From assembly GCA_004195045.1 (NCBI GenBank), contig SGBC01000002.1, positions 248,001 to 312,000 on the forward strand: DNA of 64,000 bases, in the 5' to 3' direction. Positions within the stretch are counted from its first letter, which is position 1; the number at the start of each line of letters is the position of its first letter. Shown here piece by piece: positions 25,425-33,771 of the stretch. The position numbers and the translations under genes are program-made. The stretch is from Candidatus Acididesulfobacter guangdongensis (lineage in GTDB: Bacteria; SZUA-79; Acidulodesulfobacterales; Acidulodesulfobacteraceae). Under the pieces are notes generated by a model that ran no database searches, had not been told where the DNA came from, and saw only the letters and a program-made list of their open reading frames with translations.

Positions 25425-25622
25425 TTATTTGCTAACTACTTTTGTAATCTTGCCGGCTTTCAAACATTTAGAGCAAACTTTCACCTTTTTATGTGTTCCG
25501 TTAAAATCGGCTTTTACTATATGCAGATTAGGCAGGGATACTTTTTTTGTTTTATTGTTAGCGTGAGAAACTTTGTTGCCGTATTGAATGCTTTTTCCGC
25601 AAACGCTGCAGGTCCTTGACAT
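25425..25622 (-). CDS. rpmB: 50S ribosomal protein L28
   Basis: 65-residue large-subunit protein. [23 protein letters not shown] and the second cysteine pair in [12 protein letters not shown] are the zinc-ribbon L28 form. GGAG Shine-Dalgarno before the ATG. Convergent with spoT, separated by about 100 bp in which a ~35-bp spoT-distal sequence (GCTTTTATAATCTTAA) recurs. Confidence 0.95.
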
Positions 25623-26207
25623 TATTTATGCTCCTTAAATAGTATTTGTTATTATTTATTGTGAGATTATAAATTATCGCTTTACTTTAATATATGCAAT
25701 ATATATTGCATATCAGTATTATTATATATTCGAATAATTGATATGCATATCAGGAAACTTATTCTCTTTTTTCATTTATTGTAGTCATATATTATACTTA
25801 TAATAAAATTTAAGTCAAGATATTTTATGTGATATATTTTTATATGATATTTTACTGTTATATAGGGTATACTAACCTTAGTGTTTAGTTGTAATATTTT
25901 ATAATTTATATAAATATTTTGTTTTACATTATAAAATTTTATGATAAAATAATAAACACTAACTATGGATAATAATTTGCTTTACGGATAGTTGTGAATA
26001 CTTGCATATATTCATCTATATATGTTTATAGATGAATATATATGTTTGTATATTTATATATATTTACTGATGCTTTTTAGAGTTTAGAGATAGTTACAAA
26101 TACTTTAATCTTTAAATAATGCGCAAATTATTATGATATCACAATAAGATATATCACGCACAAAAAAGAAAATTAAAACAAAAAATTAAAATTATTACGG
26201 AGGCATC
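25623..26207. other. 585-bp regulatory gap, no gene seen
   Basis: Very AT-rich. Besides the two palindromes at 25692-25752 it holds a third inverted repeat, CATATATTCATCTATA paired with its near-complement, at 26005-26044. No credible reading frame. Confidence 0.6.
25692..25752. promoter_or_regulatory. Two perfect palindromes between rpmB and the winged-helix regulator
   Basis: 25692-25713 is a perfect 22-bp palindrome (half-site ATATGCAATAT) and 25739-25752 a perfect 14-bp palindrome (half-site TGATATG). Their centres are about 43 bp apart, roughly four helical turns, and they lie upstream of divergent genes. They look like operators for a dimeric regulator, possibly the product of the next gene; this is inference. 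Confidence 0.4.
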
Positions 26208-27260
26208 ATGAAAAATCTTCAAACTAAATTTTATATAATTTTGAGTCTATTTTTTTTGAATAGAGACAAATTTGTAAAAGACACAATATCAAATATACCG
26301 CCTGAAAACAAAGAAATAGCTTATCTCAGCGATATTGAATTTACTATATTTGCATATTTTGCCTATAAATTTACCCATTCTACGGAAAAAGAAAAAAAAG
26401 ATTTTGAAAAGAACGGTATAGTCGTATCTTATAAAGACCTTAATAAACTGTACATTTCAACACCTCATCTCGCAACTGTTTTAAAAACATTACAGGATAA
26501 TAAATTAATTAAAAAATCAACCTTGACTGAAGATAAAAGAAAAACAAATTATATTCTGTCTTATCCGCTGCTTCAAAAATTTAATTTTATTAATTTAAAA
26601 GCGTTGGAATTCTGCAATTTTGATGCAACCGATACGATAATTATAAACAGATTATTAAGCGGCGTAATTGATTTGTTAAAAAGCAACAATATAGTAAACG
26701 AAGAGCAGGAAAAAAATCTTGCAAAATTTTTAGACGAAAGCGATAATTTAAAGAAGTTTTATTATATTACTATTGCATTATGGACAAGCAGGTACTTAAT
26801 CAACGATTTCCAAATCAGACTTATGGGTCCTTCTGAATTCATGGTTTATGCAATGATTATAAAACATTTTCTTAAAAATGATAAAAAACCGATTACGACT
26901 AAAAGGGTAAAAGACGAGACAGGACTTGCACCGTCAATCATCAGTCAGAGTTTTAAAAAATTTATAGATGAAGATTTGGTTACAAGAAAAGAAATTAATA
27001 AATTTAAAGTTTATTTTTATATCAACAGAAAAGAACTTGAGGAAAGAATCGAAAAAGATACAGTAATTATTGAGCTGATAACTAAAAATTTCAAAAAGGA
27101 AGATTCTAAGCATTTTGAAAAATTTATTGAAAAATTAGAGGATAAATTATATAAACAGTTAAATAGCTTAGATTCCGATAAAATATGCAAAAAATGCGGC
27201 ATGACTATACCGCCGCTGCCTGGAATAAAATATTGCCCTTATTGCGGTGATAAGATATAA
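26208..27260 (+). CDS. Tandem winged-helix protein with C-terminal zinc ribbon (putative transcriptional regulator)
   Basis: I do not recognise a named family. The N-terminal half has a MarR-like winged-helix pattern (ISTPHLATVLKTLQDNKLIKKSTLTEDKRKTNYILS, residues about 85-122). A second helix-turn-helix with a wing (TKRVKDETGLAPSIISQSF, then KKFIDEDLVTRKEINKFKVYFYI) lies at about 228-275. After a charged helix the protein ends in a CxxC-x11-CxxC zinc ribbon (CKKCGMT ... CPYCG). Strong Shine-Dalgarno (ACGGAGGC). Preceded by a 585-bp gap with several palindromes that could be its own operators. Monocistronic; followed by tRNA-Arg. Confidence 0.75.
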   Translation: MKNLQTKFYIILSLFFLNRDKFVKDTISNIPPENKEIAYLSDIEFTIFAYFAYKFTHSTEKEKKDFEKNGIVVSYKDLNKLYISTPHLATVLKTLQDNKLIKKSTLTEDKRKTNYILSYPLLQKFNFINLKALEFCNFDATDTIIINRLLSGVIDLLKSNNIVNEEQEKNLAKFLDESDNLKKFYYITIALWTSRYLINDFQIRLMGPSEFMVYAMIIKHFLKNDKKPITTKRVKDETGLAPSIISQSFKKFIDEDLVTRKEINKFKVYFYINRKELEERIEKDTVIIELITKNFKKEDSKHFEKFIEKLEDKLYKQLNSLDSDKICKKCGMTIPPLPGIKYCPYCGDKI

Positions 27261-27873: not shown

Positions 27874-29022
27874 TTAAGTCCTCTTGTTATATTCATAATC
27901 TGCAAATTTATATAATATTCTTTTCAAAGGGTTTAAAAATTTGTAAAATTTGCGTAGGGCTTTTCCCGCTATTAACGGAAGCTTGCTTATGCCGATAGCC
28001 TTATTGGCTAACGTCTCTACGCTAACAGAATAGTCACGATAACAGTCATACTTACTCGTTTGCTGTGTTTTTGGCGAGGCGTAGTATTCGTTGTTAATAG
28101 GTAATTTCAAACCATAATTAGCATTCAAGCGGATATTCGAGCCGGTAAACTTTTCAAAAAAAAATTCCGTTTTTATTCTGCAGATGTATGGTTCGATATG
28201 ATTATCGATGGAATACAACGAGGGAAGCGGCCAGCTTATAATATGATTTCTGCCGATTTGTTTCACTTTGTCACGGATTTCGTTTTTTGATGTCTTGTTG
28301 TTATAATATTCTAAAGCAAGCGCCTTTATAAAAGGCAAGGGTTTATTAGTTAAATCAGCGCGCGTAACTGGTTTTAAATTTTCATATAAGTTAGACAAAC
28401 CGGTTGCTTTAAAGAATATCGGTTCTATAGGAAATGCATATTGCATACAGTTTATGTTTTTTTCACCGAATACATCTGCGAAACTTTTTATTGTATCTTC
28501 ATATATAAAGGAAAATGTTTCTGAAAATTTTTTTGTCGGGTTAAGAATAAATTTGCCGGAATCTAAAATTTCTTTTGTATATTCTTCAAAAGAGATATCA
28601 AGTCCGTATTTAAGAAGTTCTCTATATAGCTCTATCATATAAGGAATCTGCTCTCTTAAGAATATTATTACTTCGGTGCTATAGCCGCATCGCTCAAAAC
28701 AATTCTTTAAAATTTGAAGTTTATCCGGTTTAGAATATAAACATTGAAAATTTTCAGAACTTATTATTACAACAGGGAAATTAGTTCTTTTTATTTCCGA
28801 GCAGAGGTCTTCAAGCGTGCCGTATTTCTTTTTAAAATTTTGCATATCATTGTTTAGCTGAGCAATAATATTGTGGTGTCCGCCAAACTTGCCGAATTTT
28901 CCGGCAGAAGGATAGAGTATGCCTTTCTTCTTAAGATATTTATAGTTAACAGAGAGTGTGCTTTGTAAAGCGGTTGTGCCGGTTTTATGAGTTCCTATGT
29001 GCAGAAATATTTTCTTTCTCAT
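27874..29022 (-). CDS. Sulfotransferase-like protein
   Basis: The N-terminus FLHIGTHKTGTTALQSTL is the 5'-phosphosulfate-binding loop of PAPS-dependent sulfotransferases, followed by a Ser-containing strand VVIISSENFQCLY where the 3'-phosphate site would be. 382 residues, cytoplasmic, no signal peptide. Likely moves sulfate from PAPS to a glycan or small molecule; the acceptor is unknown. Isolated on the minus strand between the tRNA and panB. P-loop proteins of related folds are an alternative. Confidence 0.75.
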   Translation of the reverse strand: MRKKIFLHIGTHKTGTTALQSTLSVNYKYLKKKGILYPSAGKFGKFGGHHNIIAQLNNDMQNFKKKYGTLEDLCSEIKRTNFPVVIISSENFQCLYSKPDKLQILKNCFERCGYSTEVIIFLREQIPYMIELYRELLKYGLDISFEEYTKEILDSGKFILNPTKKFSETFSFIYEDTIKSFADVFGEKNINCMQYAFPIEPIFFKATGLSNLYENLKPVTRADLTNKPLPFIKALALEYYNNKTSKNEIRDKVKQIGRNHIISWPLPSLYSIDNHIEPYICRIKTEFFFEKFTGSNIRLNANYGLKLPINNEYYASPKTQQTSKYDCYRDYSVSVETLANKAIGISKLPLIAGKALRKFYKFLNPLKRILYKFADYEYNKRT

Positions 29023-30223: not shown

Positions 30224-31540
30224 ATGAATAATATCTCAAAATCTGAATTTAAAATATTAGAGGCGTACATTAGCGATTTCGGAAGCGAAATAAATTCTGA
30301 AGCAATTGTAAAGGAAGATATTTTAAGGCAGGGCATCCATTTCGAAGCGACGCCTAATGCCGCTTTTTCAAGCAAATCTTATTTTATTTTTTCATTCAAT
30401 ATTGATAACGATAAAGAAGTGCTTAATAAAAAATATCCGGAAGAAATTGCAATTTCAGGAGGTCCTTTCGATTTAAAACGGACAATAATTTCTGTAAGAA
30501 TTCATAATTCATCTCCATATAAAATAAAACTTGTCGAAGATGGAGATAACGGTAAAATTAAGCCTGTGCTTTATTTAAACGAAGATTTTATTGCTGATGT
30601 CATATTCTCGGAAGAAAAATCTTATATGATACAGACTACGGCATCAGGAAAATCGGTAAGAGACCTGGCGCCGACGATAGAATGGGGATATTTAATATAT
30701 CTTGCCGTTTTTAGAATGTGCCAGTATTTTGGAGAAGATCTTGAGTGTATGTTTTGCGATATGAATTCCAATTATGTCAATCAGCGAAAAATAAACCAAA
30801 CTTATTCTGCCGTTAAATCAATTGACGATATAATAGATGCACTTGATATCATTGCTATGTCCAAAGATTCAAAAGCTGAAGCGTATACGCTGACCGGCGG
30901 AAGCATTATAGACGAAGTGAAATTTAACGGGGACGGTGAGGTAGATTTTTATGTTAGATTTCTCGAAAAAATTGAAGATAAATTTAAAGGAAAATGGATA
31001 AGCAAAATAGTTGTTCAGGCTCACGATAAAGACAACTTAAAAAGATTAAAAAATGCCGGAGCTTACATTTATCACACTAATTTTGAAATTTGGAACAAGG
31101 AATTGTTTGATAAATTGTGCCCCGGTAAAAGCAAATATATCGGCAGAGATAAATGGGTCGGCAGAATTTTAGATGCGGTAGACATTTTTGGCGATTACAG
31201 GGTTATTCCCAATTTTGTCGCCGGCATTGAACTTTCAAAACCTTACGGTTTCAAAACTGTTGACGAAGCCGTTGAATCAACTGCGGAAGGATTAGAGGTA
31301 TTTATGTCGCATAATATTATTCCGAGATATACTACGTGGTGCCCTGAAAAGACCAGCAAATTAGGTAAATTCGGCAATGTTCCGGCTCCGCTTGAATATT
31401 ATATCAAACTGCTTCTGAAATGGCATGAAATTCATTATAAGTATAATCTGCCGATACCGGAAGGATATGGAGAAGCGGGCCCTGGTAAAGCTGAATTTTC
31501 GGTTAGCGCTTTTATGGATGCTTTTAAATTATCGGCTTGA
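30224..31540 (+). CDS. Radical SAM protein with unusual cysteine spacing
   Basis: 438 residues. The cluster motif is CQYFGEDLECMFCDM near residues 166-180, giving Cx8CxxC instead of the common Cx3CxxC. YTLTGGSIID about 60 residues later resembles the GG/SAM-binding strand, followed by TIM-barrel-like strands (VVQAHDKDNLKRL, YIYHTNFEIW, NFVAGIELSKPYG). The ~150 residues before the motif form an extra N-terminal domain. The reaction cannot be named; it resembles anaerobe radical SAM proteins without assigned function. Divergent from panB with 150 bp between. Confidence 0.75.
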   Translation: MNNISKSEFKILEAYISDFGSEINSEAIVKEDILRQGIHFEATPNAAFSSKSYFIFSFNIDNDKEVLNKKYPEEIAISGGPFDLKRTIISVRIHNSSPYKIKLVEDGDNGKIKPVLYLNEDFIADVIFSEEKSYMIQTTASGKSVRDLAPTIEWGYLIYLAVFRMCQYFGEDLECMFCDMNSNYVNQRKINQTYSAVKSIDDIIDALDIIAMSKDSKAEAYTLTGGSIIDEVKFNGDGEVDFYVRFLEKIEDKFKGKWISKIVVQAHDKDNLKRLKNAGAYIYHTNFEIWNKELFDKLCPGKSKYIGRDKWVGRILDAVDIFGDYRVIPNFVAGIELSKPYGFKTVDEAVESTAEGLEVFMSHNIIPRYTTWCPEKTSKLGKFGNVPAPLEYYIKLLLKWHEIHYKYNLPIPEGYGEAGPGKAEFSVSAFMDAFKLSA

Positions 31541-32181
31541 TTTAATTGATTATTGAATAACCGAGTAAGAAAATTTGCAAATAATTTCTTTATTCACTGA
31601 TGACGCCCTTGAACTGTCAGTATGTTGTCAGTATGATTGTATTAAGCCGCAATAGAAAACGTGTAAGATAATATATAAGCTATACAATATTCAAGAGATA
31701 TAACATAAAGATATGATAATATAAAGTATGTTACCTTAATCCTGCAATAGAAAATATTTATGCATTTCTTTGCTCGTTAAGTAAAAGATAACTTTCATTG
31801 CAGAAGGAAAAGGTGTAAGGAAAAGGTGTCAGATTTTATTTTTTTTGCATATGAAGTAGTTCAATTAACAAAGAAAATATTTGCAAAAAAATTAATCTGA
31901 CACCTTTTCCGAGCAAATAACTTTCTATTGCAGGATTAAGGTGTTAATATATTCTTGAATATTTTAATTATTTATGATAGTATTTATATATATAGATATT
32001 TAATAAACATTTAATTCGGTTTGTAAGTTATAGTTATTAGGTTGATATAATATTAAAATTAAATAAAGTAGTGCAAGTGGAGAGGATAATATAATATAAT
32101 ATAATATAATATAATATAATATAGTAATGTAATGTAAATAAATAGAAAACAATTAAATTAAATTAAATTTCAGGAGATATT
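31541..32181. other. 641-bp gap holding MITE B2 and a pentamer array
   Basis: Contains MITE B2, a degenerate half-copy of its end near 31644-31664 (GCAATAGAAAA), and a (TATAA)-type array at about 32086-32123 directly upstream of mrp. No gene seen. Confidence 0.6.
31729..31946. mobile_element. MITE family B, copy B2, with 5-bp target duplication
   Basis: Element 31734-31941, flanked by the perfect direct repeat TGTTA (31729-31733, 31942-31946). Terminal repeats match B1 (CTTAATCCTGCAATAGAAA). The centre is expanded by a ~100-bp segment bounded by GGAAAAGGTGTCAGATT-type inverted repeats, also found inverted in B3. Confidence 0.9.
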
Positions 32182-33240
32182 ATGGGTAACTTAGATAAGA
32201 ACAAAACAAAAGACGGTAAAGATATTGATTGTGAATGCGGAACAGACGGAAATCATGACGGCAGTTCGTGCGGATGCGGACACGAAGAGGAGCATCATGG
32301 CTATCACCGCGATGAAGACGGCGGTTCTTGCGGCTGCGGAGAAGATGGACATAGTCATGACGGCGGTTCTTGCGGCTGCGGCGGCGATGACGATGAAGAA
32401 GACGGCGGTTCTTGCGGCTGCGGAAGCAGTCATGGCGAAGGGCACGGGAAAAATCCTTTTGATGAACAATCTCCAATAAAAGGCGTTAAAAATATAATTG
32501 CCGTAGCAAGCGGAAAAGGCGGAGTAGGCAAGTCTACGTTTAGCGTAAATCTTGCTATTAGTTTAGCTCAGCAGGGCAAAAAAGTAGGTCTTATGGATGC
32601 CGATATGTATGGTCCCAGCGTTCCTATGATGATGGGAATAAACCAGAGACCTGAATTAACCGAAGATAAACGGATTGTTCCTATAGAAAAATATGGCATA
32701 AAATTAATGTCGCTCGGTTTTTTGATACCGGAGGATACGCCTGCAATATGGAGAGGTCCGATAGTAATGCAGGTCACGACCCAGTTTCTAAAAGATGTTG
32801 AATGGGGCGATATAGATTTTCTTGTCGTCGATTTGCCTCCTGGCACCGGTGATATTCAGTTAACGCTTGTGCAAACCGTTCCGATAAATTTTGCTATTGT
32901 TGTTTCAACACCTCAGGATATATCGCTTATTGACGCAAAGAAAGCATTGGGAATGTTTGATAAAGTTAATGTTCCTGTCTTTGGAATAGTTGAAAATATG
33001 AGTTATTTTGTCTGCCCGCATTGCGGAAAACGTTCCGACATATTTAAACATGGCGGTGCGAAAACTGCTGCGGAAAAATTAGGTGTAAATTTTCTTGGAG
33101 AAATACCGATAATTGAAGATATCTGCGAATTATCCGATTCCGGAGAGCCTTTTATGACTAAAGACAGAAATCCAGAGGTTAAAGCAGTATTCAGCAAAAT
33201 TTCCGATGAGCTTATTTTAAGAACCGAACAAAGAGCTTGA
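32182..33240 (+). CDS. mrp: Mrp/ApbC/NBP35-type ATPase with Cys/His-rich N-terminal repeats
   Basis: P-loop ATPase that carries and transfers Fe-S clusters. The deviant Walker [18 protein letters not shown] (about residues 107-124), [11 protein letters not shown] and the C-terminal [11 protein letters not shown] (cluster-bridging CxxC) are intact. Instead of the usual MIP18/DUF59 N-terminal domain it has ~90 residues rich in Gly, Asp, His and Cys: four SCGCG units (three in the form GGSCGCG) separated by acidic and His-rich spacers, plus CECG. These could bind metal; that is inference. Followed after 80 bp by trxA. Confidence 0.93.
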
Positions 33241-33319
33241 TTTGCATTAAATAAAAAAGAATAGATAGATATAGAAATAGCAATAAAATAAAATTAAATT
33301 TAATGAGGAGGATTTATTT

Positions 33320-33655
33320 ATGGCTTCAGATAAAGTCATGACTTTTACAGACAGCAATTTTGATGCCGAGGTTTTGAAATCTGCAAAACCTGTATTGGTT
33401 GATTTTTGGGCAGTATGGTGCGCGCCATGCAGAGCGGTAGCTCCTGTTATTGATGAAATTGCTGCTGATTACGGTGATGTTTTAAAAGTCGGTAAGGTCA
33501 ATGTTGATGAAAATCAAGCTACCCCTGGTTCATATGGCGTAAGGGGTATTCCTACCGTAATATTGTTTAACAAAGGAAAGGTTGTTGACCAGATTGTCGG
33601 CGCTGCTCCTAAAGCTGCTTTTAAACAAATGATAGATAAAGCTATATCAAATTAA
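33320..33655 (+). CDS. trxA: Thioredoxin
   Basis: 111-residue cytoplasmic thioredoxin: [52 protein letters not shown] with the cis-Pro. The active site is WCAPC, with Ala replacing the usual Gly, which may shift its redox potential. Strong GAGGAGG Shine-Dalgarno, ~80 bp behind mrp and ahead of a strong terminator, so mrp-trxA may be one transcript. Confidence 0.95.
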
Positions 33656-33713: not shown

Positions 33714-33771
33714 AACAATAGGGTATTTGATTTATTCCAAGGAAATAAATCAAATACCCTATTGTTTTTTT
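33714..33771 (+). terminator. Strong rho-independent terminator after trxA
   Basis: A 23-bp perfect stem (33714-33736 with 33744-33766; half starts AACAATAGGGTATTTG) with a 7-base loop and a T run to 33771, 58 bp after the trxA stop. On the opposite strand no T run follows, so it serves the plus-strand transcript. Confidence 0.93.

Follow-up and report, generated by a model that had tools for sequence, protein, structure and literature searches.

Members of the MarR family (PF01047; MepR, AbfR, MarR 3bpx and ZitR among them) are typically homodimers of chains of about 140 residues and carry no zinc ribbon. Lrs14 and Sta1 are crenarchaeal regulators, and Lrs14 is itself MarR-like. In TFE-alpha/TFIIE-alpha (PF02002), a winged helix is followed by a zinc ribbon. 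SarS (1p4x) of Staphylococcus aureus belongs to the two-domain SarA family and holds two MarR-like halves in a single chain. According to a published account, SarS is not a dimer; its chain is larger and contains two halves that are homologous to each other (PMC10715151).

A protein comparable to SarS in its predicted fold is encoded in the window, which is the whole 64,000-nucleotide stretch of Candidatus Acididesulfobacter guangdongensis DNA that was analysed. The best explanation, which we consider probable, is that it is a SarS-like tandem MarR DNA-binding protein, forming a built-in dimer and carrying a zinc ribbon. For brevity, it is called the regulator below. Its features are the following (positions are those of the window):

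26208..27260 (stop codon included), plus strand: tandem MarR-like protein with a putative C-terminal zinc ribbon, 350 aa (from the open reading frame, orthologues and models)
26208..26684, plus strand: unit 1, residues about 1-159, with helices, a winged helix at 42-117, then helices at 119-159 (from conservation and the model)
26745..27167, plus strand: unit 2, residues about 180-320, with a helix at 180-194, a winged helix at 208-272 and helices at 274-320 (from conservation and the model)
27180..27257, plus strand: putative zinc ribbon, residues 325-350, CxxC-x12-CxxC (four invariant Cys, weak Pfam hits, low-confidence model)

The reading frame opens with an ATG preceded by a GGAGG site. 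The same start codon and frame are found in all 29 orthologues, the window's own counted in, with lengths of 350-354 aa and 60-99% identity to the window's protein; it is therefore a real gene. Its neighbours in the window are rpmB, on the opposite strand, and a tRNA-Arg gene downstream.

AlphaFold2 models have been obtained for the window's protein (pLDDT 82.3, pTM 0.81; the first run used this protein and 22 relatives) and for an orthologue from SZUA-79 (pLDDT 81.6, pTM 0.78), with nearly the same elements. In both halves of both models, the order alpha1-alpha2-beta1-alpha3-alpha4-wing-alpha5-alpha6 of MarR is predicted, with the winged helix placed between dimerisation helices. The first Foldseek hit in the PDB is SarS for both models, at E-values (7.3e-4 and 4.0e-3) that are modest in absolute terms, and the TM-scores that Foldseek gives for SarS, at 0.30-0.49, are also low. 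Taken separately with VIA, residues 1-163 align with MepR (Z 10.1, 135 aligned, 4.1 A) and residues 169-321 with MarR 3bpx (Z 8.6, 139 aligned, 5.2 A). In the second model, a Z of 8.8 is obtained for residues 173-324. However, Z values of 8-10 are common among winged helices, unrelated ones occur in the same list, and such single-domain matches are not diagnostic. A single superposition on SarS covers 175 residues in the window's model (5.8 A, Z 8.8) and 218 of 250 in the second (5.0 A, Z 9.1). The SarS-like reading follows from the fact that SarS alone, in both VIA lists, has an aligned length that needs both halves. As in SarS and SarU, two MarR-like halves are thus predicted within one chain, with a SarS-like packing.

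The regulator differs from SarS in several respects. It is ~100 residues longer, has additional helices both within unit 1 and between its two units, and adds the C-terminal ribbon. The two proteins share 11-16% identity, and neither lineage nor gene context is common to them. Also, the halves of SarS are homologous, whereas no sequence similarity could be detected between those of the regulator: hhalign of half against half, with shallow alignments, gives an E of 0.27 and a probability of 0.2%.

At the sequence level, the likeness to MarR is weak. In the window's protein, Pfam MarR (PF01047) matches residues 80-112 just under its cut-off (E 3e-5, 24.2 bits against 24.6), and MarR_2 matches residues 221-261 in unit 2 (E 0.0017, 18.9 bits against 27). 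No Pfam or NCBIfam model scores above its curated cut-off on this protein, and a phmmer search of the PDB is empty at E <= 1. With a sequence profile, the PDB entries that match best are zinc-responsive MarR proteins (ZitR), at an E of only 0.12, and no Sar protein appears in that search at E <= 10. The initial annotation had described an unrecognised protein with two winged-helix domains about 100 residues apart, and had asked for structure prediction with a fold search, a close match to a described family of known function being the outcome that would speak against it. The two domains are borne out by the weak MarR and MarR_2 hits and by the two models, and the fold search returned two predicted MarR-like halves. 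The large space between the winged helices is also there, at about 90 residues rather than 100, and is filled by the closing helices of unit 1 and the opening helix of unit 2. The protein is still unrecognised in the sense of the searches above, and no close match of known function was found, SarS being a relative in fold only.

The conservation among the orthologues follows the pattern expected of a protein that binds specific DNA sequences and has an important tail. For the recognition helices of the two units, the conservation scores are 0.947 and 0.962, compared with a mean of 0.851 for the protein, while the wings (0.902 and 0.914) and the ribbon (0.875) are also above that mean. In a circular-shift test, the observed mean of the DNA-binding elements was reached by 3 of 349 shifts. 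In unit 1, the recognition-helix core STPHLATxLKxLQ and the wing DKRKTNY are invariant. The least conserved parts are the linker helix (0.735) and the last helix (0.732).

The mechanism that we propose is a familiar one. Two diverged winged-helix units of the MarR type, each with its own flanking helices, would lie in one chain and pack together as a built-in dimer, so that a single molecule would insert two unlike recognition helices into adjacent major grooves. Since the two recognition helices differ, the site is expected to be asymmetric and not palindromic. The ribbon would be a structural or sensory tail, and the likeliest targets would be the regulator's own promoter, the divergent radical-SAM/ApbC/thioredoxin genes and plsY (see below). 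DNA binding, zinc binding, these targets and a ligand are what we infer for the regulator. The combination of domains is new, as is its phylum-wide restriction; the mechanism and the kind of regulator are known.

The ribbon at the end of the chain had been read as CxxC-x11-CxxC. Its terminal position is right and its four cysteines (Cys 327, 330, 343 and 346) are invariant in 29/29 orthologues, but the spacer has 12 residues and not 11. The spacing is 2-12-2 in the seven genomes of the window's genus and C-x4-C-x12-C-x2-C in the 22 orthologues of other genera. Pfam zinc-ribbon models match the tail only below their cut-offs, and the ribbon is modelled at low confidence (pLDDT about 50-60 in both models). 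From its sequence, the tail is a conserved ribbon with four cysteines in two knuckles, which would bind zinc.

A winged helix, a helix and a ribbon follow each other in residues 208-350, which resembles the order in TFE-alpha, and the initial annotation had accordingly been reminded of archaeal factors. A relative of archaeal or eukaryotic TFE-alpha that contacts RNA polymerase would fit this order. TFIIE (5gpy_A) is found at Foldseek rank 29 (E 0.077), and the NCBIfam models of crenarchaeal Lrs14 (NF040939) and Sta1 (NF053606) match unit 2 weakly (E 1.5e-4 and 0.084). These are single-domain models of about 100 positions, and the matches score 21.7 and 13 bits where 90 and 80 are required; Lrs14, being MarR-like, points back to the MarR fold. 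The TFIIE_alpha profile has no match at the gene at E <= 1, yet it scores above its cut-off in 6/14 control genomes. The MarR and SarS matches rank higher and span both halves. As a result, an identity with archaeal TFE has been rejected, and the descent from TFE-alpha is highly improbable; the likeness to archaeal factors gives way to two MarR/SarS-like halves.

A profile of the 29 orthologues detects the regulator in 29 of the 30 genomes from its phylum (Ca. Acidulodesulfobacterales/SZUA-79), always as a single copy. All 19 high-quality genomes have it, and the sole miss is a genome that is 59% complete (G029). The 30 genomes all belong to one family. The same profile was run against 386 genomes in total, and none of the 356 outside the phylum has a full-length match. 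One of these 356 is matched weakly and only in part, over profile positions 264-316 (E 6e-4), and the others have no match at E <= 0.001. Within the genomes searched, the regulator is restricted to one phylum, and to that extent the architecture is uncommon in bacteria, as had been claimed, since every full-length relative found lies inside the phylum. Between genera, the regulator is ~73% identical, a divergence similar to that of its housekeeping neighbours. We propose that the phylum has inherited it vertically, as one of its core genes. The order Ca. Acidulodesulfobacterales has been described (PMC6776010), and in excerpts of that paper no mention of MarR or zinc was found; excerpts of the open-licence PubMed Central literature gave neither a description of this protein nor studies of gene regulation in the phylum.

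An origin from a phage or plasmid has been rejected, as there are zero matches among the phages, plasmids and viral contigs searched. The Foldseek viral library gives nothing for the regulator at E <= 0.001.

PF01047 scores over its cut-off in 3/30 genomes of the phylum, compared with 14/14 controls. In two of these three, it does so through unit 1 of the regulator itself (G018 and G025, two of the 29 orthologues), and the only further place is a 154-aa open reading frame of G024. MarR_2 is above its cut-off in 0/30. By these profiles, canonical MarR proteins are almost absent from the phylum, and the counts make the regulator the most recognisable MarR relative in many of its genomes.

The genes around the regulator suggest candidate targets. 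Two neighbours in the window are relevant:

about 25425..25622, minus strand: rpmB (ribosomal protein L28, named by eye), the upstream neighbour in this genus
30224..33655, plus strand: cluster of a variant radical-SAM gene, an ApbC/Mrp iron-sulfur carrier gene and a thioredoxin gene, about 3 kb downstream of the regulator

Outside the window's genus, the regulator is divergent from the variant radical-SAM gene in 21/22 genomes. The ApbC/Mrp gene accompanies the radical-SAM gene in ten plus three loci that were drawn out, with thioredoxin in nearly all of them. The ten are the radical-SAM loci out of 13 drawn, the remaining three being of the type of the window's genus, with the gene absent or elsewhere. 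In 20/22 genomes outside the genus (all but L009 and L029), the regulator is followed after 1-59 bp by the start of plsY, and in most genera it is probably co-transcribed with it; we take this gene to be plsY from its sequence, by eye. Within the window's genus, neither radical-SAM nor plsY is adjacent (0/7), with little downstream flank available in L002 and L004. Two genomes of this genus (G000 and G003) have the radical-SAM gene about 3 kb downstream, one (G004) has it about 41 kb downstream, and four have it on other contigs.

The company of ApbC and thioredoxin, together with the four invariant cysteines, has suggested a refinement of the SarS-like reading rather than an exclusive rival to it. 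The ribbon would act as a thiol-redox or metal switch, in which metal loss or cysteine oxidation frees the DNA and derepresses the thioredoxin, iron-sulfur and radical-SAM genes. Many MarR proteins sense thiol chemistry (OhrR and AbfR), which speaks for such a switch, but zinc ribbons are mostly structural. No cysteine is invariant elsewhere in the regulator (Cys136 is missing in L029), and in the window's genus the regulator is no longer linked to the cluster. We regard the switch as rather unlikely. Sensing of sulfane sulfur by MarR proteins, a further point in its favour, is reported in PMC11211675.

One genome outside the window's genus, G014 (locus L026), is the sole one of that group with the radical-SAM gene on another contig, and the DNA upstream of its regulator is unlike that of its sisters. 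The radical-SAM protein of the window (30224-31540, plus strand) has no Pfam hit at E <= 0.001 and scores above the cut-off of NCBIfam NF045502 'variant_rSAM'. It is found in 29/30 genomes of the phylum. A homologue with 46% identity occurs in one outside genome, G108, where no regulator of this type was seen, by eye, to adjoin it.

The region between the regulator and rpmB has been examined for promoters and operators. The 585-bp gap reported earlier is correct, being measured to the start of rpmB on the minus strand, and GC in the intergenic region is 19%. Its features are the following:

25692..25713, no strand: perfect palindrome, 22 bp, not conserved in the genus
25739..25752, no strand: likely third palindrome, 14 bp (arm 7), short enough for chance
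25923..25950, plus strand: core promoter with TTTACA (25923-25928), 16 nt and TAAAAT (25945-25950), found by footprinting in the genus
26006..26041, no strand: perfect inverted repeat (15+6+15) in the presumed 5' leader

The promoter of rpmB is likely to be at 25818-25791 on the minus strand. Footprinting was done with seven genomes of the genus, whose proteins are 93-99% identical to the window's. The core promoter sits in a block of about 60 bp that is nearly invariant in the genus, with ~30 bp preceding TTTACA. This conserved element is an ordinary promoter of the sigma-70 type and resembles other promoters of the genome. A search with the block gives between 41 and 51 matches at E <= 1 per genome, with secondary hits in all of them, which means that the E-values are uncalibrated for such AT-rich DNA; the four secondary places inspected resemble ordinary promoters or AT-rich DNA by unrelated genes. 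Most other genomes of the phylum, aligned without L025 (runs of N) and L026, have as the corresponding element a promoter of the form TTTACA...TATAAT, which precedes the start codon by roughly 100-170 bp. The presumed leader in the window's genus is about 250 nt long and full of variable AT-rich repeats. In three genomes (L002, L004 and L006), it contains short tandem repeats that differ between close genomes, and a slippage-prone leader is possible there.

Three palindromes had been noted in this gap and proposed for footprinting. Two of them (25692-25713 and 26006-26041) exceed the shuffled expectation, since 4.4% of 500 dinucleotide shuffles contain an arm of at least 11 and none contains one of 15, while the likely third is within reach of chance. 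A role as regulatory sites is not supported by the footprinting, as none is conserved in the seven genomes. The closest counterparts of the 22-mer in the six genomes other than the window's have 5, 6, 8, 2, 7 and 7 mismatches, and both arms of the 26006-26041 repeat are closely matched in only one of six congeners (L002). The palindromes have been rejected as operators, none of the three inverted repeats being kept across the genus while the ~60 bp promoter block stays.

A shared operator has also been sought, using 10-mers shared, with one mismatch allowed, by 85% or more of 21 intergenic regions from other genera; L026 was excluded because its upstream neighbour differs. These 10-mers were checked against the seven radical-SAM and seven regulator upstream regions of the window's genus. 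No operator common to the two promoters was found there among the 40 words listed, all of which are AT-only or promoter-like. Such a result, together with the low GC upstream, is also consistent with a homodimer of two-domain chains, in which four winged helices would bridge DNA and serve a nucleoid-associated or architectural role with broad AT-rich targets instead of local regulation. The single copy, the phylum-wide presence and a conservation like that of housekeeping genes would suit a global factor of this kind. Against it, the helices that could form a second interface, namely the linker helix and the last helix, are the least conserved of the protein. We consider this bridging role unlikely, and the SarS-like built-in dimer is retained as the preferred explanation.

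If that explanation is correct, the regulator would be a second fused MarR-type regulator in one chain, from a lineage unrelated to that of staphylococcal SarS, here with a putative metal-binding tail. It offers a marker gene, and a likely core regulator, for an uncultured phylum. If its operator is asymmetric, the regulator would lend itself to testing how a dimer fused into one chain is freed from palindromic sites. A bolder version can be drawn, in which a phylum-defining master regulator has replaced the canonical MarR proteins. Its single-chain MarR pair would read an asymmetric operator, and its ribbon, as a redox or metal switch, would tie together iron-sulfur assembly, thioredoxin and phospholipid synthesis through plsY in these acid-living sulfur bacteria. 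We hold this version to be improbable.

Two further observations concern the DNA downstream of the regulator. An open reading frame of 382 aa (27874-29022, minus strand) lies between the regulator and panB. It has a sulfotransferase-like start, by eye, and no Pfam hit at E <= 0.001, and it was not seen beside the regulator in six other loci of the genus type or of sisters (L031, L033, L034, L035, L050 and L036). An inverted repeat with 23-nt arms and a 7-nt loop begins at 33714, between the convergent thioredoxin and CNNM genes. It is the longest perfect one in the window (loops of up to 10) and is probably a two-way terminator.
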